This document shows, piece by piece, positions 27,855 through 52,558 of a DNA stretch of 64,000 nt. The notes under the pieces are model-generated. The model was not told where the DNA came from and ran no database searches. It was given only the letters and a program-made list of their open reading frames with translations. The DNA is taken from NCBI GenBank assembly GCA_031291305.1, contig JARLJH010000004.1:19244-83243 (forward strand), written 5' to 3'. Each line of letters starts with the position of its first letter. Position 1 is the first letter of the stretch. Position numbers and translations under genes: made by a program. This stretch comes from Rhodoferax sp. GTDB lineage: Bacteria; Pseudomonadota; Gammaproteobacteria; Burkholderiales; Burkholderiaceae_C.

Positions 27855-29078
27855 AAAAAGACTCCAATTCAGGTTTCAAGGCGATCAGCATCGGTGGCCC
27901 GACGCAGTCCATCCACGCAGAAGTCCCCTTCAAAACGCCGAATTTCGGGATCAGGTCTGGCCAGGGTCTGAATACAGCCATGTCAGGTCACACTGAAACG
28001 AGACCATTTCGTCAGACGCTTGAATGAGCCCTGCGTGTCGAACCACGGTCTCACCGCAAACCGAGCTGTCAAGGGTGTGATTTGCGCGGATCAAGCCGAT
28101 TTGTGTTATTTCCGTGGCTCGGGCCTGCGAACCGGCCATCAACCCGGTCAAGGTCACGTCCGGGACCAGAGGCAGCAATTTCCCTTGTCAAGCCCGCATG
28201 CAGCCTCACTTTCAATCCCTTCGGGACAATAAACTCGGCTCACGGGTACATCCCGGTCGTTCAATCGCCACCCAAAATCGCCGGGAAATCGACACCATTT
28301 CCGGCAAGCCTGCTTGACTCATCCTCTGGGTCAGCGTCAACTACAGGTTCCCGAGGGCCGTCCTGGCCCTGCTCCATTGAGGAGCGCAAGGCGTCGCAGT
28401 CGTTACCTGCCCCAAACTCCGGTCCTTGAACCGGAATTCGCCATCGCCCCTTGAGGTGATGGCCTCGTGGTTTTTTCGTAGTGCAACCCCTTGTGGTCTT
28501 GCCAGCGTTAATCGCTGGGCGTTCCCTGAAACGCGCCACGGTTTTCGAGCACTTGGTCGGCACCTGATGCCGCGCCCCTGTTCCCGCCATCCTTTGAGCA
28601 CGCGTTTTACGCAGCGCGCGGTTGTGTTTGCCTCTTTAGGCTCCCCGCGCGTTTCCGCTCACAAACTCGGCACCGCCCTGGACTTTCGGTCAGGGGTGGA
28701 CCCATGCGAGTGGATGGCGCTACGAATCCAGAACTGATCCATCAGTACGTGCAAGGCCTGACCTTGTCACGGATGCCCTTTGACGCCCTTGAGGCGGGCG
28801 GGCATCACCAACCCCATGGTTGCAGAAATGCACAGGTGGGACGGATCACATGTTTCATTTTTAAGGAAGACCGAGCTGGCCAGCGCAGAAGCGCTGGCTG
28901 GCAAAACACTGGGTAGGTACCGCACATCGGTGGTCGCGTGCGGCGCCAGAGTTTTTGACCACTGATCTGCCGGGCGACGGAATCCGTCCGGCAGGTGACT
29001 GCTATGCGATTCCACGCTTTCAACACCTTCCCGCCGTTCGGGCGGCGGGCGGACATCCACGAAATGGAAGACAACACC
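27855..29078. other. gene-poor interval with repeat motif and hairpins
   Basis: About 1.2 kb without a convincing gene; the short frames here have no recognisable features. It holds a copy of the 22-base island motif at 28390-28411, a strong hairpin at 28875-28901 (CCAGCGC AGAA GCGCTGG core), and two hairpins directly before the recombinase gene: 28968-28993, and CCCGCC...GGCGG at about 29030-29049. Noncoding RNA or regulatory function is possible. Confidence 0.5.
28390..28411 (+). repeat. 22-base island motif, copy 1
   Basis: Contains GCGTCGCAGTCGTTACCTGC, identical over 22 bases to 47871-47892, and near-identical to 40575-40596 and 50862-50883. It lies 668 bases before the recombinase start at 29079. 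Confidence 0.75.
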
Positions 29079-30254
29079 ATGCCAAACAAATCCTCTCGTC
29101 GGCGGCAACAAGGCTCTGTCAGCCCCGGCCGCCTGTTAGTCAGTGAACCCACGCGCCGTCAAGAATGGGCGAACAAGACTGTCCCAGAAATCCTTGCGGA
29201 CTATCCGCCGGGCAAGACGCCACCGCTCAAGGTGCTGGAGGTGCTGCTGGAACTCTTCAACACCCTGCACACCTCGCTGGAGAAAACCGTTTCCCACAAG
29301 ACGCGCTATGAACGCGCCCAGTTTCTGCGGCGGTTCTTTCGTGACCTGAAAGCCAAAGCCGGGTTCAACACGATTCCCGATCCACGCAACCTGGGACAAA
29401 AGCACATTCATGCGATGGTGCAAGTCTGGCAAAAAGAGCATCTGGCCCCTGCCACGATTCAGACTTACCTGAGTTTCCTTCGCGGCTTGGGCATGTGGAT
29501 GGGCAAGCATGGCTTTGTACGTGGGCCAGCGCATTACGGCCTGAGCTTGGAGGAATACCAGCGGCATGAATATGCGCAGCGGGACAAGAGCTGGTCTGCC
29601 GCAGGAATTGATATTGAGGAACTCATTGAGCGGGTCTGCGCCTACGACCGGTATGTCGGCGCTTCGCTGCGGTTGATCAATGCCATGGGGCTGCGGCGAA
29701 AGGAGTCCATCCAATTCCGGCCCTTTGAGCACGTCTTGCCTTTCAGCGAAACGGGTCTGCCCCTTGATCGCAAGACAGCGGATCGGTATGTGAGGATCAA
29801 GGGCAAGGGCGGAAGGGTGCGTTTTGTCCCCTTGGACAGCCCTGCCAGATTGGCGGCGGTCGAACTCGCCCAAGGTCTTGTGTGCAACCAGGATGCCTAT
29901 TTGGGAGACCCAGTCAATGACCTGAAAAAGAATCTGCGTCGCTTTGACTATGTGCTGGAGAAATTTGGGATTACGTTTCGGGAACTGGGCGTCACGGCGC
30001 ATGGATTACGCCACGAGGCGCTGATTGAGCATTTTTCGGCGTTGACAGGGCAACCACCGCCGGTGCGAGGTAGTGGGGACTTGCCGGCAGAGGTTGACCA
30101 GGCGGCGCGGCAAGCGGTGGCCGCACTTGCTGGCCATTCGAGAATCAGATCGGCTGGTGCTTATTTAGGTTCGTCAGTTGTTATGCGCACAAAGGCGCCC
30201 ACTCCTGCGCTATCAGTGGAGCTCGGCGATTCGGACGACAGCCCACGCCAATAA
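29079..30254 (+). CDS. tyrosine recombinase (integrase-domain protein)
   Basis: The ATG at 29079 follows a hairpin leader and GGAAGACAACACC. This ~391-residue protein has a SAM-like N-terminal domain and a catalytic domain with GLRRKESIQF (Arg), HGLRHEAL (His-x-x-Arg), AGHSRIRSAGAYLG (His and Tyr). It differs from the P4-type integrase at 24242 and lacks DUF4102, so a role in dimer resolution, inversion or a second element is likely. The C-terminal tail is rich in Ser, Asp and Pro. Confidence 0.85.
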   Translation: MPNKSSRRRQQGSVSPGRLLVSEPTRRQEWANKTVPEILADYPPGKTPPLKVLEVLLELFNTLHTSLEKTVSHKTRYERAQFLRRFFRDLKAKAGFNTIPDPRNLGQKHIHAMVQVWQKEHLAPATIQTYLSFLRGLGMWMGKHGFVRGPAHYGLSLEEYQRHEYAQRDKSWSAAGIDIEELIERVCAYDRYVGASLRLINAMGLRRKESIQFRPFEHVLPFSETGLPLDRKTADRYVRIKGKGGRVRFVPLDSPARLAAVELAQGLVCNQDAYLGDPVNDLKKNLRRFDYVLEKFGITFRELGVTAHGLRHEALIEHFSALTGQPPPVRGSGDLPAEVDQAARQAVAALAGHSRIRSAGAYLGSSVVMRTKAPTPALSVELGDSDDSPRQ

Positions 30255-30335
30255 AAGCGGCATCCACCGAAACTGGCGAGATCGGTGAGATGGTTCAGTG
30301 CTGTTCCATGCCGGTGGGTTCACCAGCCATTCCCG

Positions 30336-30857
30336 TCAAGACCAAGAAGCCTGAGTCTGCGGCAACGCCTTTCCCGGATCAAAAACTTCCAACACATCCG
30401 GCGCAGCCAGCATTTGGGTAAACAACACCAGGTTGGTTCCGCCCTTGGCCAGACGCGAGGGAAACAAAATACCCTTCGCCCCCGCAGCGATCACCGCATC
30501 CCCAACGACCCAACTCGGTGGCTCGACACGTTGGTTGAACCACAGTTCACGCCAGTCGCAATAGAAGTCTTCCCAAATGGGCTCCCACACAGATGCGCTG
30601 TAACCCGCAGTGAAATCGACCACCGGCGCCGCGGTCAATTGATAGCTCGTCAACGTGCCGGGCGGCAACAGCGTGGAAACCTGCTGGTATTCGCGAACGG
30701 CTGTCTCCATCTCCAGCGCCAGATAAAGGGCCTCCACGCCGGGACGGTTGACTCTCCCGCCATGCCTGGCCGCCCCCGCCCCGCTGGTTGGCGCGACGGC
30801 CCATCGGGGCACATGCATCCGGTAAGCCGTGACATCGACCAGCGCGGTCAGCTTCAT
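30336..30857 (-). CDS. RES-domain toxin
   Basis: A 173-residue RES-family toxin. Known members are NAD+ phosphorylases or hydrolases that deplete NAD+. The R-E-S residues appear to lie in the N-terminal Arg segment, in ALYLALEMETAVREY (Glu), and in GILFPSRLAKGGTNLVLF (Ser). It overlaps the upstream antitoxin by 4 bases (ATGA), the usual antitoxin-first order. Confidence 0.88.
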   Translation of the reverse strand: MKLTALVDVTAYRMHVPRWAVAPTSGAGAARHGGRVNRPGVEALYLALEMETAVREYQQVSTLLPPGTLTSYQLTAAPVVDFTAGYSASVWEPIWEDFYCDWRELWFNQRVEPPSWVVGDAVIAAGAKGILFPSRLAKGGTNLVLFTQMLAAPDVLEVFDPGKALPQTQASWS

Positions 30858-31261
30858 CCTGCTGCACCCGCTTCAAGCGACTCCACGTAGCGCAGGACAT
30901 CCTCGGTGCGCCCTTCCGATACCAGCTGCTCTGCTGTCTTGTAGCCAAACGGGGGCAACGGCTCATTGCGGTACCAAAAGATGGCCCGGGTGACGTCGCC
31001 GGACAGGTCATGGGCCGCGCGCATCACGCGCAGCGCCTCGCGCAGAAATTTCTGCACGCTCTCCGATGCCGGTGCCCGGCTGATGGTGTTGCGATGGACG
31101 TGTGCCTGGGTGGCAAGCGTCTGGATGTCGATGCTCAGCACGTCGCCGAATCGCTTCGGCGACAGCGTGGACGCCCCTGCTTCCTGGTCACGCAGAAAAT
31201 CGATGAATCCATCGAAACCGTGACTCAAGGCTGGGGCAACCTGAAGGGTTGCGGTGTGCAT
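30854..31261 (-). CDS. Xre/MbcA/ParS-type antitoxin
   Basis: A 135-residue antitoxin with an N-terminal Xre-like helix-turn-helix (IQTLATQAHVHRNTISRAP) and the MbcA/ParS toxin-binding domain (LSGDVTRAIFWYRNEPLPPF GYKTAEQLV, then GRTEDVLRYVESLEAG). GAGAGG precedes the start. It neutralises the RES toxin and should repress its own promoter. Confidence 0.9.
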   Translation of the reverse strand: MHTATLQVAPALSHGFDGFIDFLRDQEAGASTLSPKRFGDVLSIDIQTLATQAHVHRNTISRAPASESVQKFLREALRVMRAAHDLSGDVTRAIFWYRNEPLPPFGYKTAEQLVSEGRTEDVLRYVESLEAGAAG

Positions 31262-39904: not shown

Positions 39905-40354
39905 TCCGATCCGTCATCTTCAGAAACGACGGGCACGCGAATGTGTTGCGTGATGGTGGACTTGGACGATTTCAAGTCGATCAATGACCAATATGGCCAT
40001 CCCGTTGGCGACGCCGCACTGATTCATTTCGCGAAAACATTGCGCCAGCGCGTCCGCCGAGCGGATGCCATTGCGCAGCTTGGCGGCGACGAGTTTGCAC
40101 TGGTTCTGCACAACGCGAGCGGTAGCTATACGCTGGGCGTACTTGAACGGCTGCAAAAGATGCTGGAGGCATCGCCGCACCCAATCCCTGAAGGATCGGT
40201 GCGCTTGCGTTTCTCGGCAGGTGTCGCCGAGCGACAGGTTGACGAATCGCTGATCGACGCACTCACTCGCGCCAATGCTGCACTGCTGGATGCCAAGCGC
40301 AGTGGCAAAGCCATGGTCAGACTTCACCTGCCACCGGACAGGCCTGGAGGTTGA
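39905..40354 (+). pseudogene. truncated GGDEF (diguanylate cyclase) domain
   Basis: The frame, open from 39905 with an ATG at 39941, encodes CCVMVDLDDFKSINDQYGHP and the LGGDEFALVLH active-site motif, plus the C-terminal half of a GGDEF domain (VAERQVDESL, ALLDAKRSGKAMV). The N-terminal part of the domain and any sensor are missing, so it is probably a remnant. If translated from 39941 it would be a 137-residue protein. Confidence 0.7.
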
Positions 40355-40864
40355 TCATGTGCCGCCGTCTTGACGCGGCTCGTGAAACTACCTGGACTCG
40401 GCGGGTCGTGAATACCTCGCCATCAAGTCTCCACCAACAATCCACCCGTTTTACCGAGGATTGCACAGAACAAATCGCACAGGTACTCGCCGTCGCCTTC
40501 GCGGAAAGGCACACTGATCCAGCACCTTGGCCTCGGCCAAAGCGCGCTCATCGGAGCGCTCCTGGGTCAGCTCGGGCGTTGCGGTCGTTACCCGCCTTCG
40601 TTGTTGGCGCAGCGCCTTGAAGCTGGCGCTGCCATCGGTGTAGGGGCGCTTGCCTCAACCCCGCTCATCCGCTTGCCATCGTCCAACGGCAGGCTTTTGC
40701 CTGTTCAGTTCATAGCCCTTTGAGCCCGTCAGCTTCTCACGAAGCCCCGACGTGCTCGCATTCATCCACGGGGGCATTCCTGGCCCTCTCATTCATTCCC
40801 ACCCGGGGAGCACGTCTCCCCACTGGGTGGCTGTGTTCCCCATTTTTCTTTGGAGAACACACCC
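40355..40864 (+). promoter_or_regulatory. structured upstream region of the methyltransferase-helicase gene
   Basis: No gene is seen. It contains the 22-base island motif (40575-40596, three mismatches to copy 1), the hairpin GGGGAGCACGTCTCCCC (40805-40821), and TTGGAGAACACACCC leading to the ATG at 40865. The same sequence of hairpin and GGAGAACACC is found before 48230, 48958 and 50986. Confidence 0.6.
40575..40596 (+). repeat. 22-base island motif, copy 2 (3 mismatches)
   Basis: Contains GCGTTGCGGTCGTTACCCGC, matching the motif at 28390-28411 with three changes. It lies 269 bases before the methyltransferase-helicase start. Confidence 0.65.
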
Positions 40865-43800
40865 ATGGTACGTATTACCGCGCCTTCCCTCTGGCTACCC
40901 GGGTTCAGTCCGGAGCCGTCCGAGTCCCCTGCTCTTTTGATCGAGATTGAACCGGCAGATTCAGACCCGGTTTCCACCGATGCGAACGACTTTTCAGGCG
41001 AACTGGCAACTGAACCGGCACGCCAACGCAGCAACTGGCGCGTGGTCACCGGCGCCGCAGAAACGGCAACACGCAACCTGTGGTCGCAGCTGACCCGCGC
41101 CGAACTGCGGAACCTTGGCGGCAGCGTCACCAAGTTCGAGGCCAATCTGGCCGCGATCAAGGTGCTGCACCAGATTGAGACCGAGCAACGCCCGGCCACA
41201 CCGGACGAACGCAGCACCATGCTTCGCTACACCGGCTGGGGCGGCTTACCCGTCAGCTTCAACCTTGAAGCCGAAGAAGCTGCCTGGGCCAAACGTGCAC
41301 GGCAATTGAGTGTCTTGCTGACCCCGAATGAGTACGAATCAGCCCGTGCATCGGTCAACAACAGCCATTACACCGAGGTCCATGTGATCGAGGCTATGTG
41401 GCAGGCGGTGCAGCGCTTCGGCTTTTCTGGCGGGCGTATTCTAGAGCCCGCTGCGGGCATCGGTCACTTCGTTGGCGCAATGCCTACTGCCATAGCGGAA
41501 CAAAGCAGCGTCACCGCTGTCGAGATCGATCAGTTGTCCGGTCGCATGCTGCAAGCGCTGTATGCACCGGGCGGCGTAGATGTGCGGATTTCTCCCTTCG
41601 AGAAAACCCCGCTCGCCGACAACTGGTTCGACTTGGTGATCGGCAACGTACCATTCGGCAAATACCAGGTCGCCGACGTGAGCAACCGGGCCTACGCCCG
41701 CTTCAGCATCCACAACTACTTCTTCGGCCGCGCGCTGGACCTGGTGCGGCCCGGTGGGCTGGTGTGCCTGATCACCACCAGCTACACGATGGATGCACAG
41801 GATGCGAGCGTGCGCCACTACCTGGGGGCCCAAGCCCAGTTGCTGGGCGCGATCCGGCTCCCCCGGGGCGCCTTTGCGGGCATCGCGTCCACCGACGTGC
41901 AGACCGACATCCTGTTCCTGCGCAAGCGGCAGCGGGCCGAGCAAATCGACGACACCTGGCTGGACCTCAATGTAGTGCCCGAGATATTGCGCGACCCGCA
42001 GTGCTATCAGAAATACCTGCAGATCAATGCCTGGTATGCCAAGCACCCTGAGTTCTGCATAGGCCGGATTCGGCAGGAAAGCAACGGCTACGAGGAAGTG
42101 CCTGTCGCAGTATTCGACGGTGACCTGGAAGCCGCGTTACCCGAACGGGTGGCCTTGCTCCCTTCAGATGTCTACCAGGCGCTGGCGCGGAAGCCGGTTG
42201 CTTTGCGCGTGGTGGTGCCATCTGAGCCCGGTGCCCGCCCAGGCAGCTACCGCCTCCACCAGGGACGGGTGCACCGGGTCGACGGCAGCGAGATGGCTGA
42301 TGTGCATGGCATGCTCAACGCCACGCAGCGAGGCCGGATCACCGGCATGTGCGCGATTCGGGACTACGCACGGACTTTGCTGGACGCTCAATTGTCCGAA
42401 GGCAACGACGGGCGTCTGGGTCATCTGCGGGCTTTGCTCAACGGCACTTACGACCGCTTCATCACGAAATACGGTTGCCTGAGCACCCGGGCCACTGCGC
42501 TGGCGTTCCGGCGCGACCCGGACTACCCGCTGCTGCTGTCGCTGGAGCACTACGACGAAGAGTCGGACACCGCCAAGAAAGCGGCGCTGTTCACACGGCG
42601 TACGTTGACACGGGTAGTGGAGCCAACCACGGCGGGGGAACCGACCGAGGCGCTGGCGGCGTCCATCCAATGGCGTGGCCGGGTTGATCCCGCCTACATG
42701 GCCGGATTGCTGGCCGCGCCCGAAGATGCTGTGCTGCAGGCGCTGGCCGAGGCCGGACAGGTCTTTCTTGACCCAGCGGATAGCGATTGGAAAACCGCCG
42801 ACGACTACCTGTCGGGCAACGTGAAGGCCAAGCTCAAGCAGGCTGTGATGTCGGGCAGCGCCTACCGGCGCAATATCGACGCGCTGGAACAGGTGCAACC
42901 CGAAGACCTGCCGCCAGCGTCCATCGAACCCCGCCTGGGCGCGGTCTGGATTCCCGCCATGGACGTCGAGGCTTTCGTCCAGGAAGTTCTGGAGCTCAAG
43001 GACTGCCAGGTCAGCTATTCGGCCGAGGCCGGAGCCTGGTCAGTGCGCTATGGCGAGTGGGAAGCGCGCCAGAATGTGAAGGTGACGCAGGAGTTTGGCA
43101 CCTCGCGCATGAACGGCATCGAACTGGTGCAATGCGCACTGAACGTGCAGGTGCCCACGGTACGCGACCCGGACCCCGAGACGGACAGGTATGTCGTCAA
43201 CTCTGATGAAACGCTGGCCGCACGCGAGAAACTGGGCCTGATCAAAGACCGCTTTGCTGCCTGGGCCTTTGAGGACACGGTGCGGCGAGAAAAGCTGTGC
43301 CGGATTTACAACGAGCTGTTCAACGCCACCCGGCCACGACAGTTCAATGGTTCCCACTTGAAGTTGCCGGGATTCTCCCGCTGCTTCACGCTACATCCGC
43401 ACCAGTTGGATTCCGTCTGGCGCATCGTGCAGTCTGGCAACACCGGGCTGTTCCATGTGGTCGGTGCGGGCAAGACGGCAGTGTGCGTGATCGCCAGCAT
43501 GGAACTGCGTCGGCTGGGTTTCATCACCAAGCCCTGCCACGTGGTACCGAATCACATGCTCTCGCAGTACACCGCGGAGTTTGTCCGGCTCTACCCGAAC
43601 GCGTCGGTGCTGATGGCCAGCAAGGAAGACCTGGAGGGCGACCGCCGGCGGAAGCTGGTGTCGCGCATCGCCACGGGCGATTGGGACGCAGTGGTCATCA
43701 CGCACTCAAGCTTTGAGCGCATCAAGATGTCGCCGCAATTCACCGAAACGTTTATCAAGGAGATCATTCATGAGTTAGAAATGGCAGTACGCGCAGAAAA

Positions 43801-45856
43801 GAGCAATGACAAGTCCAACCGGATCGTCAAGCAACTGGAGGCAATGAAGAAGAACTGGGCAGCCAGGCTGGAACGGCTGCTGGCGGACCAGAAGAAGGAT
43901 GACCTGCTCACCTGGGAACTGCTGGGCATTGACTGCCTTTTCGTCGATGAGGCTCATCTGCACAAGAACCTGTACCGATTCACCAAGATGACACGGGTCG
44001 CGGGTTTGCCCTTGACCAGCTCGGAACGCGCGTTCGATCTGTTCCTGAAGACGCGCTACACCATGAAAATCCATGGACATGCCCAGCGTGGGGTGGTGTT
44101 TGCAACGGCAACGCCAGTGGCCAACACCATGGCGGAGATCCACACCATGATGCGTTACCTGCAGCCAAACCGGCTGGAGGAACTCGGGCTGCAGCAGTTC
44201 GATGCCTGGGCTGCCACCTTCGGTGAGAGCGTCACGGCGCTGGAGATCGCACCGGATGGCAGTGGATACCGCATGCACACGCGGTTTGCACGGTTCATCA
44301 ATGTGCCCGAGTTGATGGCGGTGTTTGGTGAAGTGGCCGACATCCGCACGGCGGAAATGCTGAACTTGCCAGTCCCGCCATTACGCGGGGGCAAAGCACG
44401 CATCGTGGCCTGCCCATCCAGCAAGGCGCTCAAGGCCTTTGTGGAAACACTGGTGCTGCGGGCGGAAGCCGTCCGAAGCGGCCATGTGAAGCCGCAGGAC
44501 GACAACATGCTTGCGATCACCACGGATGGCCGCAAGGCTGCGCTGGATTTCCGGCTGGTGGCACCGCTGGCCAAGTTTGATACCAAGGGCAAGGTGGTCG
44601 CCTGCGTAGGTGAGGTGATGGACATCTGGCGCAGGAGTACGGACTTCCGCGGTGCCCAGATGGTGTTTTGCGATCTGTCATCGCCCAAGGGGGACAAAGG
44701 GTTCAGCGTCTATGACGATTTGCGGCAAAGGCTGATCGAAGCAGGTCTGCCTGAGAAGGACATCGCCTTTGTGCACGATGCCGACACCGACGTCCAGAAA
44801 GCCACGCTGTTCAAGGCGGTGCGTGATGGACGGATCCGGGTGCTGCTCGGCTCGACGGCGAAGATGGGTGTTGGCACCAATGTGCAGACCCGGTTGTGCG
44901 CCTTACACCACCTCGATGCGCCCTGGCGTCCCTGCGACGTCGAGCAAAGAGAGGGGCGCATCCTGCGCCAGGGCAATGAGTGTGAGGACGTGGAGATATT
45001 CAGGTACGTGACAGAGCAAAGCTTTGATGCGTACCTGTGGCAAACGCTGGAAACCAAGGCACGATTCATTGCCCAGGTGATGAAGGGTGACAAGGGCATC
45101 CGGTCACTCGAAGATGTGGAACTGGCAACCCTGTCGTATGCCGAGGTCAAAGCCCTTGCTTCCGGCAATCCGCTGGTGATCGAAAAAGCTGGTGTGGACG
45201 CGGAAGTGGCCAAACTGTCAACGCTGTTCTCGGTGTGGCGCAACCAGCGCTACGCCAATGAAAGCGAGGTGGGACGGCTGCCGATGATGATCGAAGCCCT
45301 GGAGAAGAAGATTGCACTGTATGCCCAGGACGTGGCGCGGGTTGAGCCACAAACCATGCAGGGAATTGCCCTGGAACTGGCTGGTCGGCCCGTCACAGGA
45401 CCGGACGCCGTGGGGGAAGTCCTGCGGGGTCTGGTCAAGGCAGCCAAAGAAGAGGTGCGCACCGGTACCCGGATGATTGAACGGGTGGTCGGCCGGTTTG
45501 GCGGATTTGACCTGGGCATCCTTGCGGCACGCGGCGAGGAAGTGCCCAACCTGTACCTGTCAGGCCATTGCCTGTACAACGCCGAACCGTACCAAACAGG
45601 GCCCGCCCTCGTGGCCGCACTGATGGCGGCGCTGGAATCGGTGGTCAAGCACCACACCGATGCAGTTGTGCAATTGGAGGTGCGGCGCAAGCGGCTGGAA
45701 GACATCCGGCTGGAGCTGGCTCGGACCTTTGAACACGAAGGCCGTCTGGTGAATCTGCTCGCCCGTCAGCGAGAGCTGCTCAAGCAGCTTGATCTGGACA
45801 AGGATGAAGCGGGCAGCGCGAAGGTTGATGCCGAAGAGGTGCGACAGGCAGCTTGA
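40865..45856 (+). CDS. DarB-like DNA methyltransferase-helicase (1,663 aa)
   Basis: A giant two-enzyme protein. The N-terminal N6-adenine methyltransferase has motif I ILEPAAGIGHF (residue ~191) and a motif IV variant VIGNVPFGKY (~260), with Val in place of the usual Pro. A superfamily 2 helicase follows: HVVGAGKTA (Walker A, ~866), FVDEAHLHKN (DEAH, ~1027), FATATPVAN (motif III) and EQREGRILRQGN (motif VI, ~1362); a coiled coil ends the protein. The layout resembles phage P1 DarB and other anti-restriction proteins of mobile elements. The ATG at 40865 follows GGAG. Protection of the island DNA on entry is inferred. Confidence 0.85.
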   Translation: MVRITAPSLWLPGFSPEPSESPALLIEIEPADSDPVSTDANDFSGELATEPARQRSNWRVVTGAAETATRNLWSQLTRAELRNLGGSVTKFEANLAAIKVLHQIETEQRPATPDERSTMLRYTGWGGLPVSFNLEAEEAAWAKRARQLSVLLTPNEYESARASVNNSHYTEVHVIEAMWQAVQRFGFSGGRILEPAAGIGHFVGAMPTAIAEQSSVTAVEIDQLSGRMLQALYAPGGVDVRISPFEKTPLADNWFDLVIGNVPFGKYQVADVSNRAYARFSIHNYFFGRALDLVRPGGLVCLITTSYTMDAQDASVRHYLGAQAQLLGAIRLPRGAFAGIASTDVQTDILFLRKRQRAEQIDDTWLDLNVVPEILRDPQCYQKYLQINAWYAKHPEFCIGRIRQESNGYEEVPVAVFDGDLEAALPERVALLPSDVYQALARKPVALRVVVPSEPGARPGSYRLHQGRVHRVDGSEMADVHGMLNATQRGRITGMCAIRDYARTLLDAQLSEGNDGRLGHLRALLNGTYDRFITKYGCLSTRATALAFRRDPDYPLLLSLEHYDEESDTAKKAALFTRRTLTRVVEPTTAGEPTEALAASIQWRGRVDPAYMAGLLAAPEDAVLQALAEAGQVFLDPADSDWKTADDYLSGNVKAKLKQAVMSGSAYRRNIDALEQVQPEDLPPASIEPRLGAVWIPAMDVEAFVQEVLELKDCQVSYSAEAGAWSVRYGEWEARQNVKVTQEFGTSRMNGIELVQCALNVQVPTVRDPDPETDRYVVNSDETLAAREKLGLIKDRFAAWAFEDTVRREKLCRIYNELFNATRPRQFNGSHLKLPGFSRCFTLHPHQLDSVWRIVQSGNTGLFHVVGAGKTAVCVIASMELRRLGFITKPCHVVPNHMLSQYTAEFVRLYPNASVLMASKEDLEGDRRRKLVSRIATGDWDAVVITHSSFERIKMSPQFTETFIKEIIHELEMAVRAEKSNDKSNRIVKQLEAMKKNWAARLERLLADQKKDDLLTWELLGIDCLFVDEAHLHKNLYRFTKMTRVAGLPLTSSERAFDLFLKTRYTMKIHGHAQRGVVFATATPVANTMAEIHTMMRYLQPNRLEELGLQQFDAWAATFGESVTALEIAPDGSGYRMHTRFARFINVPELMAVFGEVADIRTAEMLNLPVPPLRGGKARIVACPSSKALKAFVETLVLRAEAVRSGHVKPQDDNMLAITTDGRKAALDFRLVAPLAKFDTKGKVVACVGEVMDIWRRSTDFRGAQMVFCDLSSPKGDKGFSVYDDLRQRLIEAGLPEKDIAFVHDADTDVQKATLFKAVRDGRIRVLLGSTAKMGVGTNVQTRLCALHHLDAPWRPCDVEQREGRILRQGNECEDVEIFRYVTEQSFDAYLWQTLETKARFIAQVMKGDKGIRSLEDVELATLSYAEVKALASGNPLVIEKAGVDAEVAKLSTLFSVWRNQRYANESEVGRLPMMIEALEKKIALYAQDVARVEPQTMQGIALELAGRPVTGPDAVGEVLRGLVKAAKEEVRTGTRMIERVVGRFGGFDLGILAARGEEVPNLYLSGHCLYNAEPYQTGPALVAALMAALESVVKHHTDAVVQLEVRRKRLEDIRLELARTFEHEGRLVNLLARQRELLKQLDLDKDEAGSAKVDAEEVRQAA

Positions 45857-45863
45857 TCAAGTT

Positions 45864-45900
45864 GACCCCCATGGCTGAAAAGCGATGGGGGTCTTTTTTT
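45864..45900 (+). terminator. Rho-independent terminator after the DarB-like gene
   Basis: GACCCCCAT pairs with ATGGGGGTC, followed by seven T. Confidence 0.9.
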
Positions 45901-46065
45901 GTGCGTGTTTATCCACAGAGGCTGTGGACAAGCAGGTCCCGGCAAGCCGACAACCCGCGTCTGGCAATGGTACGACTGGCCTGCCCGTAAATTGGGCATG
46001 CCCAGAGAACGAGCTGCAAAACTTTCGACAGCGATCAACCAATGCCGACCGTCAGCCCCCCTGAC

Positions 46066-46476
46066 TCACCCGTTGGCCGCCTGAAATGCGGCTTGCACAG
46101 CGCGCACCAGCGAAGGATGCAAGGTGCCAAGCTTGGGCGTCTGGCCATGTGGTGCCGCAGGCGGCACGGAGAACCACTCTGTCGTATACGGAAGATCGAT
46201 CGTTTGCTTTAAATCGAACTTGGTGTCATAGCTGAGACCCGCTGCCTCATATGCCGCCAGATTGCGGTCACGCAGGATGGCAAATTCGCCTCGGTGCAGG
46301 GTGGTCGTGCGTTGGCTGGTACCGTAGGCAACTCGAACGTGAAACTGCGGCGCATCGTCGTCAAATACCGCCAGAATCAGCGCTGGTCGTGGTTTCGGGC
46401 GCGGGTTGACATCGTCGGGGAAGTGGCACCACACAATCTCGCCAGCAGTGGGTTCGTCCCACCACTGCTGCATCAT
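46066..46476 (-). CDS. PemK/MazF-like toxin
   Basis: A 136-residue protein with GEIVWCHFPDDVNPRPKPRPALI near the N-terminus, the PemK/MazF core where the Arg-Pro-rich loop contributes to RNA cleavage. It is larger than typical MazF (~110), with a helical tail. It starts inside the last codons of the antitoxin gene (4-base overlap). Confidence 0.75.
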   Translation of the reverse strand: MMQQWWDEPTAGEIVWCHFPDDVNPRPKPRPALILAVFDDDAPQFHVRVAYGTSQRTTTLHRGEFAILRDRNLAAYEAAGLSYDTKFDLKQTIDLPYTTEWFSVPPAAPHGQTPKLGTLHPSLVRAVQAAFQAANG

Positions 46477-46760
46477 GTCAACGCCACCTCGAACAGGCTG
46501 GAGCGCACTGAACGCTTCTTGCCCTGCGGAACACGCTTCTTGATCTGGCGTACTTGGGCCACGGTCAGCGGACCATCATCGGCCTCATACTGCGGCAGCA
46601 GCTTGACGGCCATGGTGTGCAGTGCAATGTGGATAGCCTGAGTCTCATCGACGCCGAGTCGTTCCGCCACGCGTTTTGCGGTTTCGCGCGTCACGCCCGT
46701 GGCGCTGTCGACGGTACGGTAGCGGAAGGCGATCTGGTCGGCAGCGGCACGGGTGTTCAT
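46473..46760 (-). CDS. antitoxin partner of the PemK-like toxin
   Basis: A 95-residue protein with an N-terminal segment (RYRTVDSATGVTRETAKRVA) that may bind DNA and a basic C-terminus (QIKKRVPQGKKRSVRSSLF). Position directly before the toxin with overlap, and the palindromic operator upstream, support the antitoxin role; the family is not clearly recognised. Confidence 0.65.
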   Translation of the reverse strand: MNTRAAADQIAFRYRTVDSATGVTRETAKRVAERLGVDETQAIHIALHTMAVKLLPQYEADDGPLTVAQVRQIKKRVPQGKKRSVRSSLFEVALT

Positions 46761-46780
46761 TGTGAAATCTCCTTGTTTTG

Positions 46781-46797
46781 GATATCTTTAAGATATC
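46781..46797 (-). promoter_or_regulatory. palindromic operator and promoter of the PemK-like pair
   Basis: GATATCTTTAAGATATC is a perfect inverted repeat about one base. On the minus strand TTGACA, 17 bases, then TATCTT gives -35 and -10 boxes, with the -10 inside the palindrome. This suits autorepression. Confidence 0.7.
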
Positions 46798-47110
46798 TCA
46801 AAAAGCATCCCTTGTCAAGGTCTAACCTATCACTCGCTGTCCACATCGCGGGTGTTCATTTCCCGGAATTGCCGCGTCAAAAAGGCTGAATCCTCATGCG
46901 TTTGCGAAAGCAGACCCGTCGCCAAGAACCACCTGGGCTTGAACCATTGGATCTTCCTATCAACCAATGCAAAGACTATCTACCAGTTGGATTGAATCCA
47001 TGTCAGCCTCTACAGACGACCCGTAAAAGTAAATTCCAGAGCATCAAATTATTGAGGACAATACTCGCCTGGCAAAAATAGATTCGCCAGATAACAAAAT
47101 AGGAATACAA

Positions 47111-47440
47111 ATGGCAACTGCGAAGAAAGTGGCTCCCAAGGCTGCAACGACAACAAAGAAAGTAACGGCTCCCGCGAAGGCACCAAAGCCCGCTGCGAAA
47201 GCCCCCGCCAAAAAGGCACCCGTGTCCAAGACAGCCAAGGCCATTGCCAAACTGACGACAAACATCGCCAAGCTGACCGAGCGCAAAAACAAGATCGCTG
47301 CAGAAATCAACACGCTGCGTGATCAGCGCACTGCACTGAAGGTTGCGCCTGCTGTTGCAGCACCTGTGGCGCCCAAGGCAAAGCCCGCTGCTAAAGCGGC
47401 TGCCCCGGCCAAGAAGGCAAAACCGGCTGCGAAGAAGTAA
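47111..47440 (+). CDS. histone H1-like Lys/Ala/Pro-rich DNA-binding protein
   Basis: A 109-residue protein. Residues 1-40 and 80-109 are AK/PAKA repeats like AlgP and H1-like proteins of Betaproteobacteria; the middle (IAKLTTNIAKLTERKNKIAA) is a short coiled coil. It should bind DNA without sequence preference and may compact or silence island DNA. A strong terminator follows. Confidence 0.85.
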   Translation: MATAKKVAPKAATTTKKVTAPAKAPKPAAKAPAKKAPVSKTAKAIAKLTTNIAKLTERKNKIAAEINTLRDQRTALKVAPAVAAPVAPKAKPAAKAAAPAKKAKPAAKK

Positions 47441-47470
47441 TTTGGATACGCGGCTCTGTCGCCCAATACG

Positions 47471-47496
47471 AAAGGCCCTTCGGGGCCTTTTCTTTT
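47471..47496 (+). terminator. terminator after the H1-like gene
   Basis: AAAGGCCC pairs with GGGCCTTT around TTCG, followed by TCTTTT. Confidence 0.85.
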
Positions 47497-48229
47497 GCGT
47501 GTACCGCAATCTGGTTGCCGCGGCCCATCCACATTGGGTGAACAGACCGTCTGGGAGTTATCCACCCATTTGCGCGTGACCATCTTGAGTCGGGGTCCAT
47601 GTTTTCCACAGAGACAACAGAACCTGATCGAACTCCCCGAAAACGATGCTGTCGCAAAAAGCGGCTCATCAATTGATCTGCCGAGCTTGTCATGCACCAC
47701 CCAAAAACACCCGATGTTGCGGGCGCTTCGGGGTGGTATCGCCCTGCCTGTTGCGGCACATCCTTGATCACTCGCCACCTCCCGAGCCACACTGCTAGGG
47801 CTATCCGTGGGCATCGAGCCTGCACAGCCTTCATCAGAGGATTCCTGTCCTCCTGAAGTCCAGTATGACTGGCGTCGCAGTCGTTACCTGCCTTTGAAAG
47901 AGTCCGGGCTTTCGCCTGGTCAGGCCATACGCTTTATGCGCATGGCTTCGTGATCCGTTCAGCCCCAGGCTGACCACTGTGCTTGCCGTTAAACCCTCGG
48001 GCTTGACGGCATGCAATGCCGTGCGCGGTGACATCTTGCATGTCATTGCAGTTCGGCATCGATAGAAGGCTCCCGTTCGAAAGAACCGGGGGTTTTCGTT
48101 TTCATGGCATACCGAAAGGTGTCGCCACCAAGCTGCTCGGCCATCTATGGCCCGAGCATTCCCGAACGGGGAACTCCAAGTTCCCCGCCGGGGATGGGTG
48201 TTCCCCTTCTGACCCTGAAGGAGAGCACC
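47497..48229 (+). promoter_or_regulatory. long noncoding region with motif and leader hairpins
   Basis: No convincing gene. It holds the 22-base motif (47871-47892) and two hairpins before the ATG at 48230: GGGGAACTCCAAGTTCCCC (48168-48186) and GGGGATGGGTGTTCCCC (48190-48206), then GGAGAGCACC. A CCCGTTC...GAACCGGG hairpin with T-rich tail at ~48073-48102 may end an upstream transcript. Confidence 0.6.
47871..47892 (+). repeat. 22-base island motif, copy 3
   Basis: Contains GCGTCGCAGTCGTTACCTGC, identical over 22 bases to copy 1 at 28390-28411; lies 338 bases before the ATG at 48230. Confidence 0.75.
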
Positions 48230-48406
48230 ATGTTCGCAGTCCCTGTGAAAAGAGAAACGCGCCCCATTGGCGTGCTACTGGGAGGATCCGGCCTTGCCCG
48301 GATGCTCGCGGTTCGCAAGCCAGTGGTGGCCGCATTGTTGAAACCGTACCGGTCTGTTTCCGAACAGAACGCATCGGTTGTAGAAGCCTGTGCTTCGGCA
48401 GTCTGA
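48230..48406 (+). CDS. 58-residue hypothetical protein
   Basis: ATG at 48230 after GGAGAGCACC. The product, MFAVPVKRETRPIGVLLGGS start, is small and basic-hydrophobic. The double-hairpin leader and good ribosome site support a real gene. It ends two bases before the next start. Function unknown. Confidence 0.6.
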   Translation: MFAVPVKRETRPIGVLLGGSGLARMLAVRKPVVAALLKPYRSVSEQNASVVEACASAV

Positions 48407-48408
48407 CC

Positions 48409-48609
48409 ATGCTGGCCAGTCTTTACCGCAAGCGCGTAGCCGCCATGGCGATTCAACTCGCCAAGGATGACCCACAACTGGTCAAGGAAGTGATCGCTCG
48501 GCTGAGGAAGGCTGGGGAGATTGAGCCCGACGATCTGGTCTACCTGGACCAAATCGCCGACCGTTGGATCAGGATTGCACGGGAGAACCGGCAGAAGGCA
48601 AGTCGCTGA
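48409..48609 (+). CDS. 66-residue helical hypothetical protein
   Basis: ATG at 48409, two bases after the previous stop, so translation is probably coupled. A helical protein (AKDDPQLVKEVIARLRKAGE, then IADRWIRIARENRQ) of unknown role. The 3' end overlaps the opposite-strand gene at 48569. Confidence 0.6.
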   Translation: MLASLYRKRVAAMAIQLAKDDPQLVKEVIARLRKAGEIEPDDLVYLDQIADRWIRIARENRQKASR

Positions 48610-48835
48610 CCACTAGGTCCAGCGATGCGGGCAGTCGCACGCCCTTGGCCTTCGCCATCTCCAGGACGATCTTGTCCAGCAGATCAGGACGTTCGTCGGA
48701 CAGCGTCTGGGCCCACCGGCCCAGCGCCTGTTCGATGTCGTCCTGTGTTCGCGTCCCTGCGAAGTCGATACCGAGTGATCGGTAGTCCTCGACTTCGTTG
48801 GGCGTGAACCTTACCGCGCTGCCTGCACGAAACAT
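48569..48835 (-). CDS. 88-residue hypothetical protein
   Basis: The product starts MFRAGSAVRFTPNEVEDYRS and includes TQDDIEQALGRWAQTLSDER; helical and acidic. AGGAAAGG upstream on the minus strand supports the start at 48835. It converges on and overlaps the 66-residue gene. Function unknown. Confidence 0.65.
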   Translation of the reverse strand: MFRAGSAVRFTPNEVEDYRSLGIDFAGTRTQDDIEQALGRWAQTLSDERPDLLDKIVLEMAKAKGVRLPASLDLVVSDLPSAGSPVQS

Positions 48836-48896
48836 GGTGTGGGCCTTTCCTGTTTGTCACTGAGCTTATCAGTGGCATGTATCTTCGCAAGCCCTC

Positions 48897-48936
48897 GGGG
48901 AGTCCACCGTCTCCCCGCCGGGGAAAAGGTGTTCCC
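48897..48936 (+). promoter_or_regulatory. double-hairpin leader of the 48958 gene
   Basis: GGGGAGTCCACCGTCTCCCC (48897-48916) and GGGGAAAAGGTGTTCCC (48920-48936), then TGGAGAAACACC and ATG. Same architecture as 48168-48206 with compensating base changes in the first stem. Confidence 0.65.
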
Positions 48937-48957
48937 TCTTTCATCTGGAGAAACACC

Positions 48958-49497
48958 ATGTCCCTTGAGAAACCCCATCCTCGCACGAAGCGCCCCAGCA
49001 TCGAGCACGAGGAAGAAAGAGCCTGGGTCAGCTTTTACAAGCGTGTTGGCAACGACCTTGCCCTCGCTACCGAAGTGCTGGCCCAACTGGATTCCGATCC
49101 CGACATGAAGCGCTCCCATCTGGCTTTGTACCTGTGCTGCAAGGAATCCTTGCGCACGCACAAGGTCCGACAGGCGCGCAACAAACGGATTGGGATGTTC
49201 GTACGCTGGTTTTGCGGTGGGCTGTTCACGCAGCTGTTCGTCCAATGGCCGAACGCATGGCGTCGAAGTCTGCGCCAGAGCGGCGACATCGTCGTCGAGT
49301 GCCTGCCCGAGACCGGCAGAGATGTCGGCAAAGAGCCTGCCATGGCCAAAGCCAGGCAGTTGACCCAAGAGCCCACCTTTGCCACGGCGCAGGCGGACTT
49401 CCGTCAACAGAGAACGGGCGAGCCGGCAGAACCTGCTGCTGCGACCGCGCAGGCCAGTGATTCGGCCCCTTCCCCGGCTGCCCGCAAGGCGGCCTGA
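48958..49497 (+). CDS. hypothetical protein, plasmid/ICE type
   Basis: A 179-residue protein from ATG 48958. The N-terminal ~110 residues are helical and basic (SFYKRVGNDLALATEVLAQL, LYLCCKESLRTHKVRQARNK); the C-terminal ~45 residues are Ala/Pro/Glu-rich and probably unstructured. Not recognised. Confidence 0.7.
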   Translation: MSLEKPHPRTKRPSIEHEEERAWVSFYKRVGNDLALATEVLAQLDSDPDMKRSHLALYLCCKESLRTHKVRQARNKRIGMFVRWFCGGLFTQLFVQWPNAWRRSLRQSGDIVVECLPETGRDVGKEPAMAKARQLTQEPTFATAQADFRQQRTGEPAEPAAATAQASDSAPSPAARKAA

Positions 49498-49584
49498 TTT
49501 GTCAACACCTGTGGGCTGCACGTCAGCCCATCCCGTCGACTTGCCTTGGGGCTTGGCGGCATCCCTTTTGAAAGGAATTCATCC

Positions 49585-50169
49585 ATGACATCCATTGCTG
49601 ATACCCTGCGTGCCATCGAGGCACGCGCTGAACGCGCCATCGTCCAGGAATTGCGACTCATGACGCAGGAGATCCTCGCCATGCGCACCCTGCTCGTGCT
49701 GCAAGACCGTAACCACGCTGACGCCCTGTTGCTGAAACTGGACCGCCTTGCACAAGACCAGACGGTGGCACCTGTGAGTGCGACTGAGACGCCTGTCTTT
49801 CTGATGCCAGACTTGCGTCTTGATGACATTCAGGCGCTGGCGCCTGTGGCGTACAAGGTCCATTTCTATAGCCGTGCGTGCGGTGATCTGGAAGACGTCG
49901 TGACGCTGGAGGCCTTCGACGCTGGCGTCCAGTTGGTTCTTGATCGCCTGGATGCCCATCGCGGACATGCGATCGAAGCCAGTTGGACCAACGGCAGAGG
50001 TGCCCTCAAAGTGCTGACGCCAACGGGTGCCGCGCTGGCAACCGTTGAAGCGGCTGATGTCGTTGACGTTTCGGTGGATCCGATCGTCAAAAAAGTCTGC
50101 CAGGCAATGCAACTGGGCGATGCTTCGCGCATTGAACAGCTGTTCGGCCTGATGCTCAAGGCCGCCTGA
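49585..50169 (+). CDS. hypothetical protein
   Basis: A 194-residue protein from ATG 49585 (GAAAGGAATTCATCC upstream, after a GGGCTGCACGTCAGCCC hairpin). The N-terminal helix (IADTLRAIEARAERAIVQEL) and a C-terminal alpha/beta part (YKVHFYSRACGDLEDVVTLE) are seen. Not recognised. It sits between two other uncharacterised island genes. Confidence 0.7.
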   Translation: MTSIADTLRAIEARAERAIVQELRLMTQEILAMRTLLVLQDRNHADALLLKLDRLAQDQTVAPVSATETPVFLMPDLRLDDIQALAPVAYKVHFYSRACGDLEDVVTLEAFDAGVQLVLDRLDAHRGHAIEASWTNGRGALKVLTPTGAALATVEAADVVDVSVDPIVKKVCQAMQLGDASRIEQLFGLMLKAA

Positions 50170-50299
50170 AAGTGTCCCGTACCCGGCGTATCCCTGCTAC
50201 GCCCCGTGGAACCTGCCTTGCCCTTCGGGGTGGGGCAGGCTCATCTTTGATACTGAATTGCGATGAGCGCGGACTGGCAACACCACCCAGCCACCATCG

Positions 50300-50521
50300 C
50301 TATGCGACCTGGCGGCACTGCCGGTATTCCCGGTCAATCAGCCAGTGGACAAACTCCGTTTGCTCCGAAACACCCCAGTAATGCGCTTTGCACCGTGCGA
50401 CATAGGCCTCCAGGTCGCCCAAGGTGCGAATGTCCACCGGTTCGATATCGGTGATCTTGGTAAACACTTCAATTTCCTTGCGGTTCAGGCGAATCTGGTC
50501 GTTGAGTCGAATCATGGTCAT
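50300..50521 (-). CDS. 73-residue hypothetical protein
   Basis: From Met at 50521: MTMIRLNDQIRLNRKEIEVF, then DIEPVDIRTLGDLEAYVARC and a C-terminal WLIDREYRQCRQ. A longer frame to 50731 begins in low-complexity sequence and is not chosen. Function unknown. Confidence 0.6.
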   Translation of the reverse strand: MTMIRLNDQIRLNRKEIEVFTKITDIEPVDIRTLGDLEAYVARCKAHYWGVSEQTEFVHWLIDREYRQCRQVA

Positions 50522-50861
50522 ACCCCATTCAATGGGTTTTTCGGGTATCTTGGCCGAATCTGACGCGCATGTCTCTGGTTTTACGGGGTGGGCTATAAAG
50601 ATATTTCCACCGCGACCACAGTCACAGGTCAGTGTCACGCCACTGCGAGTGGCGCCCCATCTGGAACAACCCGTCGCGCCCATGCAACGCATCCGATGAC
50701 AGTCAGTCGCCCCCCGGAACACACCACCCAAATCTCTCCGGCTTTGGTGACATTTACCGGTGGTGTAGTGGCGGCCATCCTTGAACCCCGCCCATCACTG
50801 CGCCAGACTCTGCAGGTGATCTCTGTGCACTCCATCGTGGGGTGCTCATCCGGTCTTTGCC

Positions 50862-50883
50862 GGCGTCGCAGTCGACACCTGCC
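50862..50883 (+). repeat. 22-base island motif, copy 4 (2 mismatches)
   Basis: Contains GCGTCGCAGTCGACACCTGC; matches copy 1 apart from two bases in the centre. It is followed by the perfect hairpin GCGCATGC/GCATGCGC (50893-50912) and GGGAAC/GTTCCC (50922-50936), 103 bases before the RadC-like start at 50986. Confidence 0.7.
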
Positions 50884-50985
50884 TTACCAACCGCGCATGC
50901 CCTGGCATGCGCATCCCGAGCGGGAACCTTGTTCCCTTCGGGATCGGCGTTTCCGCTTTTCTGTTTAACCATAGAGGAGAACGCC

Positions 50986-51567
50986 TTGAATCCATCCTTT
51001 CTGTCCCGTGCCGACCTGGTTCGCGAGTTGCTCGCGCCAACGGTCAGGGATTACATTGCAACCACACCCCATGTGGGTGATAGTGAATCAGCCTACCAAG
51101 GGGTAGCTGCCAACGATTCTGTAGTCAGCCGCAAACTCGGTGTGGCCCGCGAATTGCTCTTACGTGACCTGCAAGCGCAGATGTGCACTGGTCCGGTCAT
51201 GGGTACGCCACAGGTGCTGCGGGATTGGTTATGCCTGCACTGTGCGAACCTGGAGCACGAAGTGTTTCTGGTGCTGTACCTGACCGCCCAACTCCAGTTG
51301 ATCGAGGCCGTCGAACTGTTCCGAGGCACTTTGACTCAGACCAGCGTTTATCCGAGGGAATTGGTCAAGGGTGCGATTTCCCGCAACGCCGCTGCCGTGG
51401 TCGTTGCGCACAATCATCCCAGCGGCCATGCGGAGCCCAGTCGCGCAGATGAGTTCCTGACGCAGACGCTGAAGCAGGCGCTGAGCCTGGTGGACGTGCG
51501 CGTGGTCGATCACATGATTGTGGCGGGCGGCACGGTACTCAGTTTTTCCGAACGCGGTCTGATCTGA
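50986..51567 (+). CDS. RadC-like JAB-domain protein
   Basis: TTG start at 50986 with GAGGAG upstream gives 193 residues. The MPN/JAB metalloprotease-like site is HNHPSGHAEPSRAD, with the upstream Glu in LQLIEAVELFRGTL. RadC-like proteins are common on plasmids and islands; the function (possibly anti-restriction or repair) is unsettled. The N-terminal HhH part of chromosomal RadC is absent. Confidence 0.88.
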   Translation: MNPSFLSRADLVRELLAPTVRDYIATTPHVGDSESAYQGVAANDSVVSRKLGVARELLLRDLQAQMCTGPVMGTPQVLRDWLCLHCANLEHEVFLVLYLTAQLQLIEAVELFRGTLTQTSVYPRELVKGAISRNAAAVVVAHNHPSGHAEPSRADEFLTQTLKQALSLVDVRVVDHMIVAGGTVLSFSERGLI

Positions 51568-51601
51568 CGCCTTGACCTGAGTGTCCGTCAAGGAATTCTT
51601 A

Positions 51602-51629
51602 CCCCGAGGGGCTCACCAGCCTCGCGGGG
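51602..51629 (+). promoter_or_regulatory. leader hairpin of the zinc-ribbon gene
   Basis: CCCCGAGG pairs with CCTCGCGGGG (one bulge) around GGCTCACCAG; GAAGGAGAAACG and the ATG at 51664 follow. Confidence 0.55.
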
Positions 51630-51663
51630 TTAGTGAGTCCTTCAATGTCATGAAGGAGAAACG

Positions 51664-51843
51664 ATGCCTGCATCTACACCACCCCATTGCCCCGTCTGTT
51701 TGGACTTCGGGGCCTTGCTGGGCCAACTCGGCCCATTGCGCTGGTTTCGCTGCCGCGCCTGCGGCATGGACTTCAGCCGTTCGTCCCGTGCCCGCCGTGC
51801 AGCGAGCCCATCACCCCAACCCCAAGGAGTCCCCCATGGATGA
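51664..51843 (+). CDS. 59-residue zinc-ribbon protein
   Basis: ATG at 51664 after GAAGGAGAAACG. Two CxxC pairs, HCPVC and CRACG about 25 residues apart, form a zinc ribbon; the tail is basic and Ser/Pro-rich. It is under 60 residues and easily missed. Its stop overlaps the start of the next gene (ATGGATGA), so the two are coupled. Confidence 0.7.
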   Translation: MPASTPPHCPVCLDFGALLGQLGPLRWFRCRACGMDFSRSSRARRAASPSPQPQGVPHG

Positions 51844-52144
51844 ATCCACTGTCACCAGCTTGCGCCAGCAGGCCGAGCCCCTGGCGGCACTGTCGAGTAC
51901 GCACCTGACGCCAGCCACACGCCTAAAGTTGATGGGCAACGACCTCTCGGTCAACGCCTACCCCACCGCACATGGCGGCTTTGTCTATGTCGGTTCGCCG
52001 CGCTACGACATCCCGACGGAAGCCGACTTGGCGGCCGTCTTTGAAGTGGCGGAACGGGCCGGTATCGTCTGGCTGAAGTTCGATGCCGATTCGGCCGTCA
52101 TTGATGGGCTTCCGGTCTTCGGCATCCCAGGAGAGGCGTTGTGA
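51836..52144 (+). CDS. 102-residue hypothetical protein
   Basis: ATG at 51836 with AAGGAG upstream. MDESTVTSLRQQAEPLAALS start, then AYPTAHGGFVYVGSPRYDIP and a C-terminal AERAGIVWLKFDADSAVIDG. A small alpha/beta protein not recognised with certainty. It overlaps the next start by 4 bases. Confidence 0.7.
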   Translation: MDESTVTSLRQQAEPLAALSSTHLTPATRLKLMGNDLSVNAYPTAHGGFVYVGSPRYDIPTEADLAAVFEVAERAGIVWLKFDADSAVIDGLPVFGIPGEAL

Positions 52145-52473
52145 GTCAGCATTCTGTCCGCACGCGCTACCAAGGCGACGAAGTCGTGGTGATCGCCGGC
52201 TATGACCGACCGCTGAACGATCTTTTCCTGCAGGTGCTGAGTCATCAACACGCGAGCGTTGCAGCGGAGGAATGTGTCCTCTACAGCAGTCTCCATGAGC
52301 CCCAACGCGACTGGACCGATATCAACACGGTGTCGGACAAGCTGATTGAACTGGGCATCGAGGTACCCGACAGCTTGTTGGAAGCCGTGTACCTGGACCA
52401 GTTGTTCCATGTCGGCAACCGCATGGTCCGACACCACATTAACCAGCCACCCGAGGTGCTGCTGGCCGGATGA
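52141..52473 (+). CDS. 110-residue hypothetical protein
   Basis: GTG at 52141 overlaps the previous stop (GTGA). Contains DEVVVIAGYDRPLNDLFLQV and EVPDSLLEAVYLDQ; a compact acidic protein of plasmid type. It is the third gene of a coupled set. Function unknown. Confidence 0.7.
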   Translation: MSQHSVRTRYQGDEVVVIAGYDRPLNDLFLQVLSHQHASVAAEECVLYSSLHEPQRDWTDINTVSDKLIELGIEVPDSLLEAVYLDQLFHVGNRMVRHHINQPPEVLLAG

Positions 52474-52558
52474 ATCTTATCGGCCACCACAAGGTGGTCT
52501 CAAGTCACTCAGGGCGTCGCGCTGTAAGGCCGACGCCCTGTTTCTTTTGGAGCAAGAT

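Follow-up and report, generated by a model that had tools for sequence, protein, structure and literature searches.

A candidate two-state leader RNA that sequesters the Shine-Dalgarno sequence before several genes of a mobile element in Rhodoferax sp.

The window analyzed here is a 64,000-nucleotide (nt) stretch of Rhodoferax sp. (contig JARLJH010000004.1, positions 19,244 to 83,243, forward strand). It carries an island with an integrase (start at 29079), a gene for a 1663-aa methylase/helicase-like protein (40865), a 58-aa open reading frame (ORF; 48230), and genes starting at 48958, 50986, and 51664; the product of 50986 matches the Pfam RadC family (1.7e-39). A preliminary description had proposed that a common leader, with hairpins followed by an unpaired Shine-Dalgarno (SD) sequence, placed ten genes (29079, 31550(−), 39376(−), 40865, 48230, 48958, 49585, 50986, 51664, and 52559) under shared RNA-level control. 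We sorted these ten leaders by folding and by comparison with orthologues in 42 loci of other genomes. Those of 40865, 48230, 48958, and 50986 belong together and that of 51664 joins them weakly, and the SD, far from being free, lies buried in a second hairpin. Common control is well supported for the four and likely for the fifth; the other kinds of leader had been lumped in with them. The leaders of 29079, 31550(−), 39376(−), and 52559 were rejected as members because folding and relatives showed hairpins of other kinds, the one before 52559 being conserved in close relatives only.

The five retained leaders share one layout (Table 1). A two-tier hairpin, H1, corresponding to the "first stem" of the preliminary description, has outer arms c and c′ enclosing inner arms a and a′. 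It is followed by H2, in which the SD arm b (GGAGAACACC-like) pairs with b′ just upstream (GGTGTTCCC-like), and which ends at the start codon or a few bases from it. In the 48230 leader, GGTGTTCCCCTTC lies opposite GAAGGAGAGCACC. The exact 13-base string GGAGAACACC directly before ATG has 0 occurrences in the genome and was dropped as a genome marker; its absence implies that the SD arm varies, jointly with its partner strand.

Table 1. Predicted leader elements and upstream domains (U) in the window.
Feature	Position	Strand	Evidence
H1, two-tier, leader of methylase/helicase-like gene (ATG 40865)	40799..40830	+	R2 49.9 bits; fold
H2, SD-sequestering, TGTGTTC/GAACACA, 40865 leader	40832..40861	+	R2; fold
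H1, leader of 48230	48157..48196	+	R2 74.8 bits; alignment A2
H2, SD-sequestering, GGTGTTCCCCTTC/GAAGGAGAGCACC, 48230 leader	48197..48229	+	R2; fold
H1, leader of 48958	48892..48923	+	R2 48.9 bits
H2, SD-sequestering, GGTGTT/AACACC, 48958 leader	48928..48957	+	R2; fold
H1, leader of RadC (TTG 50986)	50913..50944	+	R2 52.3 bits
H2, SD-sequestering, GGCGTT/AACGCC, RadC leader; U-A to C-G change relative to 48230 leader	50946..50985	+	Covariation; R2; fold
H1-like hairpin, leader of 51664 (weak member)	51601..51630	+	Fold; R2 14.4 bits, E 0.26
H2-like SD hairpin, CCTTCA/TGAAGG, 51664 leader	51633..51662	+	Fold
U (P2 + P3, GGCGTTGCGGTCGTTACCCGCC) before 40865 leader	40553..40599	+	R3 49.7 bits; row of A9
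U before 48230 leader	47851..47895	+	R3 53.6 bits; row of A9
U before RadC leader	50840..50886	+	R3 48.1 bits; row of A9; pair count on MAFFT alignment A7
U-like site, some 0.67 kb before the integrase start 29079, without H1/H2 leader	28353..28414	+	R3 37.5 bits, E 9e-5; outside A9

The covariance-model search suggested in the preliminary description was run with a model, R1, built from 19 orthologous 48230 leaders only. At E ≤ 1 it matched the window and the 42 loci 135 times, in 43 sources, with opposite-strand images of the H1 palindrome making up some of the total. Among these matches were the leaders of RadC, 48958, 40865, and 51664 homologues, so that a model from one gene's leaders detected the remaining members. 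A second model, R2, was built from alignment A5, which comprises 52 matches of a narrower search (48 distinct rows, one of them from the opposite strand) and contains the window's 48230, 48958, and 50986 rows; the 40865 leader is represented there by orthologues and not by the window's own row. In an unfiltered run over the window, R2 matched the four clear members at E values from 9e-9 to 5e-14. The 51664 leader folds into the two-hairpin layout yet scored poorly, and the match at 49585, which finishes at its start codon, reached 8.1 bits (E 5.7), leaving membership of that leader undecided. Leader matches in this genome (4.98 Mb) exceed chance: eight R2 matches at E ≤ 1.6e-4 all fell on the window's contig and on contig 51, which holds a second related island. 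The other four of the 12 matches listed at E ≤ 10 were three opposite-strand images and one match at E 8.5.

The covariation suspected in the preliminary description is real. On A5, 90.7% of cells are paired and 19 of the 26 pairs have changed on both sides, with 126 double-change cells against 32.7 ± 4.6 in shuffled alignments (0/500) and 7 to 29 when the structure was slid. At one H2 pair, 30 of the 48 distinct rows have U-A and 17 have C-G. RadC leaders alone, in an 11-row sequence-only MAFFT alignment (A7) that covers H1, H2, and an upstream domain, U, and whose structure was taken from one row, gave 9 double-change cells against 3.6 ± 1.3 (0/500); for the number of pairs with a double change the result was 27/500. 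Covariation within the single 48230 orthologue set was set aside as evidence, since these sequences are too conserved to tell. We then assembled 131 distinct leaders (203 rows of A5, A6, and A10 minus 40 opposite-strand, 18 short, and 14 repeated ones), and in 122 of them at least 4 of the 6 SD bases are paired in the minimum free energy (MFE) structure. G-U pairs and variable loop lengths occur among the leaders. As judged from sequence, the SD of this leader is paired within a conserved hairpin, and a helix that competes with it is predicted as well.

That helix, which the preliminary description overlooked along with U, forms between a and b′. The 5′ arm of H1 and its loop resemble the SD arm (GGGGACAC with GGAGACAC, GGGGAGCAC with GGAGAACAC, GGGAAACAC with GGAGAAACAC); a plus loop mimics b, so b′ can pair with either. 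By complementarity, the H1-H2 fold, with the SD hidden, and a:b′ are mutually exclusive. Across the 131 leaders, the duplex of a plus loop with its own b′ averaged −13.69 kcal/mol, against −11.35 ± 0.17 when b′ was permuted among leaders (0/500). The 82 leaders outside A5 and outside this genome's second island gave −13.43 against −10.98 ± 0.22 (0/500), and on those 82 the control duplex a′:b gave 112/500. H2 pairing itself averaged −12.07 kcal/mol in an earlier leader set in which some leaders were counted twice. The "loop(+1)" measure, usable for A5 only because elsewhere nonpairing duplexes were given huge energies, gave −2.69 against −1.85 ± 0.17. RNA truncated before b folds a:b′ in 83 of the 131 leaders, and full-length RNA in 7. 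On A11, for which 28 picked leaders were aligned by MAFFT from sequence alone, a:b′ is paired in 87.5% of cells (47 to 74% for slid versions), with 11 double changes against 4.7 ± 1.9 (2/500). In silico, the leader thus has a predicted alternative fold that excludes the SD-hiding one.

The window's 40865, 48230, and RadC leaders, and not that of 48958, are preceded by the conserved domain U, made up of hairpins P2 and P3 around GGCGTYGCRGTCGNNACCYGCC. Its core starts 213, 276, and 40 nt, respectively, before the R2 or R1 match. On alignment A9 (24 rows, from which three integrase rows of A8 were excluded), the third pair of P3 is A-U in 15 rows and G-C in 9 and is broken in none. The whole structure has 25 double-change cells against 10.1 ± 2.7 (0/500); neither the pairs changed on both sides (442/500) nor the further pair types (348/500) were in excess on A9. 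The U model, R3, placed U at nine sites of this genome (E ≤ 0.1), none of them outside contigs 11 and 51. It matched at least 3 of 399 genomes of the order, so that U seems to be a feature of the window's island type. The contig 51 island (L097 and beyond) carries leaders before the 40865, 48230, and 48958 homologues and one at 60740, and also U.

The H1-H2 leader is more widely distributed. R2 matched at least 49 of 399 genomes and at least 34 of 159 genera of the order (E ≤ 0.01), and, at E ≤ 0.001, at least 12 of 369 genomes of the class and at least 7 of 398 of the phylum, this genome included; these are lower bounds, because scans over 40 genomes scored some 12 to 15 candidates per genome. 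Eight stretches, one of them this genome's second island, gave 105 R2 matches at E ≤ 1, opposite-strand images included. Of the 60 best (E ≤ 0.01), 54 stop precisely at an ATG or GTG with which a frame of 40 or more codons begins; two of the other six lead to a 25-codon frame and one ends nine bases before the ATG chosen by the script. Three annotated plasmid stretches came from pSTJ2 (typed nonmobilizable; stretches L125 and L094 are one and the same) and from Delftia acidovorans and Rhodoferax ferrireducens plasmids (both typed conjugative). They gave 35 plus-strand matches at E ≤ 1; 22 of these have their end precisely at the start of an annotated gene, and 25 end within 6 nt of such a start. 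R2 itself ends in AUG, which bears on all such counts.

Dozens of genes in other islands and plasmids stand behind this leader, among them genes for RecT, SSB, PD-(D/E)XK nuclease, ArdC-like, RadC, ParB, and methylase/helicase proteins; for the 40865 gene alone, 37 leaders were listed across loci, the window's included. In stretch L090 the leader-preceded genes include those for DUF3799 PD-(D/E)XK, RecT, SSB, RadC, ArdcN, ParB, and PRTRC_E. A 25-codon frame of similar sequence (about M-LIIIAC--SGY-ISRPV-RALGL) comes with a leader of its own at L090:1355-1432, at L091:3358-3435, and in L082, where the start codon lies at the match end; in L090 and L091 the frame is flanked by two leaders, upstream of a PD-(D/E)XK-type gene. 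On pSTJ2 (L125:19914-24969) the annotation has two genes in the methylase/helicase region, the second of them directly preceded by an R2 match (E 0.0013), as if the new start of a split gene had gained a leader.

Other features of the window were noted in passing. The ParB-like frame at 37615-39376 matches the ParB proteins of 15 related loci over about the first 121 to 139 residues only (best segments) and overlaps a recombinase frame (Phage_integrase), so that the gene looks interrupted. A GGDEF domain at 39941-40354, within the leader region, matches only from profile position 35 onward. At 47111-47500 lies a lysine- and alanine-rich small protein, histone H1-like by eye, followed by a terminator-like hairpin.

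We consider it rather likely that these are cis-regulatory leader RNAs that recur upstream of numerous genes in a single kind of mobile element and act as a two-state switch that gates an early or maintenance module. The resting, full-length fold would hide the SD. A shared trigger, which would most likely be an element-encoded RNA-binding protein and otherwise a ligand or a trans RNA, would be read through H1 and, where present, through an upstream U or radC-RNA domain. It would shift the balance of folds and so jointly set translation of the module. In this model a:b′ most likely frees the SD (ON), and rather less likely forms a terminator with the U-rich tract behind it (OFF). One signal could probably set the output of many genes that help the element settle in a new cell, and the identity of the target genes suggests control of establishment or upkeep.

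Several results weigh against such a switch. The optimum with the SD kept free is the a:b′ helix in only 51 of the 131 leaders, and in 19 chosen leaders the SD-free fold lies on average 9.3 kcal/mol above the full-length MFE, by these predictions a wide gap for a switch that has no strong trigger. The control duplex a′:b deviates slightly on all 131 leaders (−4.90 against −4.66 ± 0.10; 6/500). The strongest covariation count, that on A5, comes from a model-fitted alignment, the 48230 orthologues alone show one double change (46/500), and the permutations ignore relatedness. On A11, H2 is weak: 68.8% of cells are paired against 64.8 ± 1.6 (6/500), its double changes give 53/500, and sliding by −2 pairs more of it (71.9%). 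We put this down to indels between subfamilies, by which H2 is apparently misregistered. Finally, the U fraction in the first six positions behind b′, counted after 34 leaders without the b′ motif were dropped, is 0.42 to 0.84 in A5 (45 leaders), 0.69 to 0.80 in A6 (51), and 0.33 to 0.67 in A10 (6).

Because a:b′ is often followed by this U-rich tract, the chief rival to SD release is a transcription attenuator in which a:b′ and the tract form an intrinsic terminator, H1 is the antiterminator, and H2 arises solely in read-through transcripts; SD release and attenuation would have opposite outputs. The folding of truncated RNAs into a:b′ fits an attenuator, as do the alternative folds at L094:14624 and L126:2891, 15-bp hairpins with a short loop, and the terminator-like sites of L090 (53 against 25 ± 5 in shuffled sequence), some of which lie at leaders. 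In the window's 40000-54000 region, however, such sites are near chance (18 against 13.0 ± 3.4), even though the 48958 and RadC leaders account for three of the 18 lines, and no good U run is present in the window's 48230 and 51664 leaders. A different role for the U tract may be to pair with A-rich SDs or to provide a ribosome docking loop, and an attenuator does not explain why H2 covaries with the SD. We regard it as somewhat unlikely.

Stable hairpins immediately before a gene might simply protect the mRNA or fix a low translation rate, with no switching, and the recurrence of leaders before many genes in some islands would be odd for a specific sensor. Such passive 5′ ends would not be expected to show the leader-specific complementarity of a plus loop to b′ found both by permutation and on the sequence-only alignment, and we think this explanation improbable. 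H1 is nearly palindromic and is matched on the opposite strand too, as a DNA-level element (a palindromic operator, single-strand promoter, or repeat family, with RNA folding incidental) would be. The asymmetric layout ending at start codons, the variable loops, and the G-U pairs speak against it, and a simple sigma-70 scan, limited to that promoter type, found 4 sites in 40000-54000 against 3.6 expected, all on the minus strand; we hold it to be very improbable. SD release by a two-state leader remains the reading that we prefer.

In SD-sequestering riboswitches and ribosomal-protein leaders, too, the SD is hidden in a hairpin, and another segment upstream competes for the anti-SD strand. Unlike them, the present leader is repeated before many separate genes of one element and has no Rfam match at cut-off: neither the window's leaders nor those in the other stretches scanned matched a family in Rfam 15. 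Permissive scans gave weak matches away from the leaders only, plus a chance-level match to ncS011 over the RadC leader (10.4 bits against a cut-off of 48, E 1.4), which was rejected. RNA thermometers (ROSE, FourU) had no Rfam match in the window, and the predicted 9.3-kcal/mol gap speaks against one. Far from the leaders, 5_ureB_sRNA matched at 4340-4629(−) with 109 bits. Searches of openly licensed PMC papers brought up nothing recognizable as these leaders. By these searches the leader is absent from Rfam 15, and as a putative two-state cis-regulatory leader it is unusual in that many genes of a mobile module each carry a copy.

The nearest neighbor is the radC RNA, which lies upstream of radC, methylase, integrase, and antirestriction genes and for which we know of no function. 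It has been listed as a candidate structured RNA (RF01754) since 2010, according to the entry in PMC2864571. The leaders share its gene context (RadC, methylase/helicase-like, and ArdC-like genes behind them), except for the window's integrase, and it was above cut-off in 4 of the 28 genomes carrying them. The window yielded no radC RNA at the gathering score, and relaxing the threshold to E ≤ 5 for 28000-54000 and to E ≤ 10 for 50780-50990 brought up none either. That the leader is itself a member was rejected, the best score in this genome being 17.9 bits against the curated 40. A 185-genome scan did not find the radC RNA either, which says little, since no control gave a signal. In five stretches of other genomes (L108-L112), 13 of 17 radC RNAs are followed on the same strand by an R2 match (E ≤ 1) whose start ranges from 36 nt before their 3′ end to 14 nt past it, and 4 are not. 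Of the 33 R2 matches on the minus strand of these stretches, 20 lack a radC RNA immediately before them. Like the radC RNA, the window's U is a run of small hairpins upstream of H1, though 40 to 276 nt away. R3 matched none of the 17 radC RNAs of L108-L112, so the likeness of the two is one of position.

Antirestriction genes are among the sorts of gene found in the leading regions of conjugative plasmids. Zygotic induction of such regions is described for RP4 in the passages of PMC7314908 that concern it, where the single-strand promoters of F and ColIb-P9 are cited. The gene sorts given there overlap with ours in SSB and stable-inheritance genes (PMC7314908). Zygotic induction is described in those passages as transcriptional (PMC7314908), whereas the shared element here is an RNA leader at the start codon.

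More tentatively, we suggest that these leaders may form a new class, in which the early module of conjugative and integrative elements (SSB, RecT/exonuclease, RadC, ArdC, ParB, and methylase/helicase) is placed under one RNA-sensed signal, with the radC RNA and U as alternative sensors upstream of a common output part. If so, the entry and upkeep genes of a broad group of mobile elements would share an RNA operator and not, or not only, a transcriptional one. The radC RNA would gain a likely output domain and, with it, a direct test of what it senses. The leader can also serve as a marker for such modules and for start codons in unannotated DNA, those of very short genes included.

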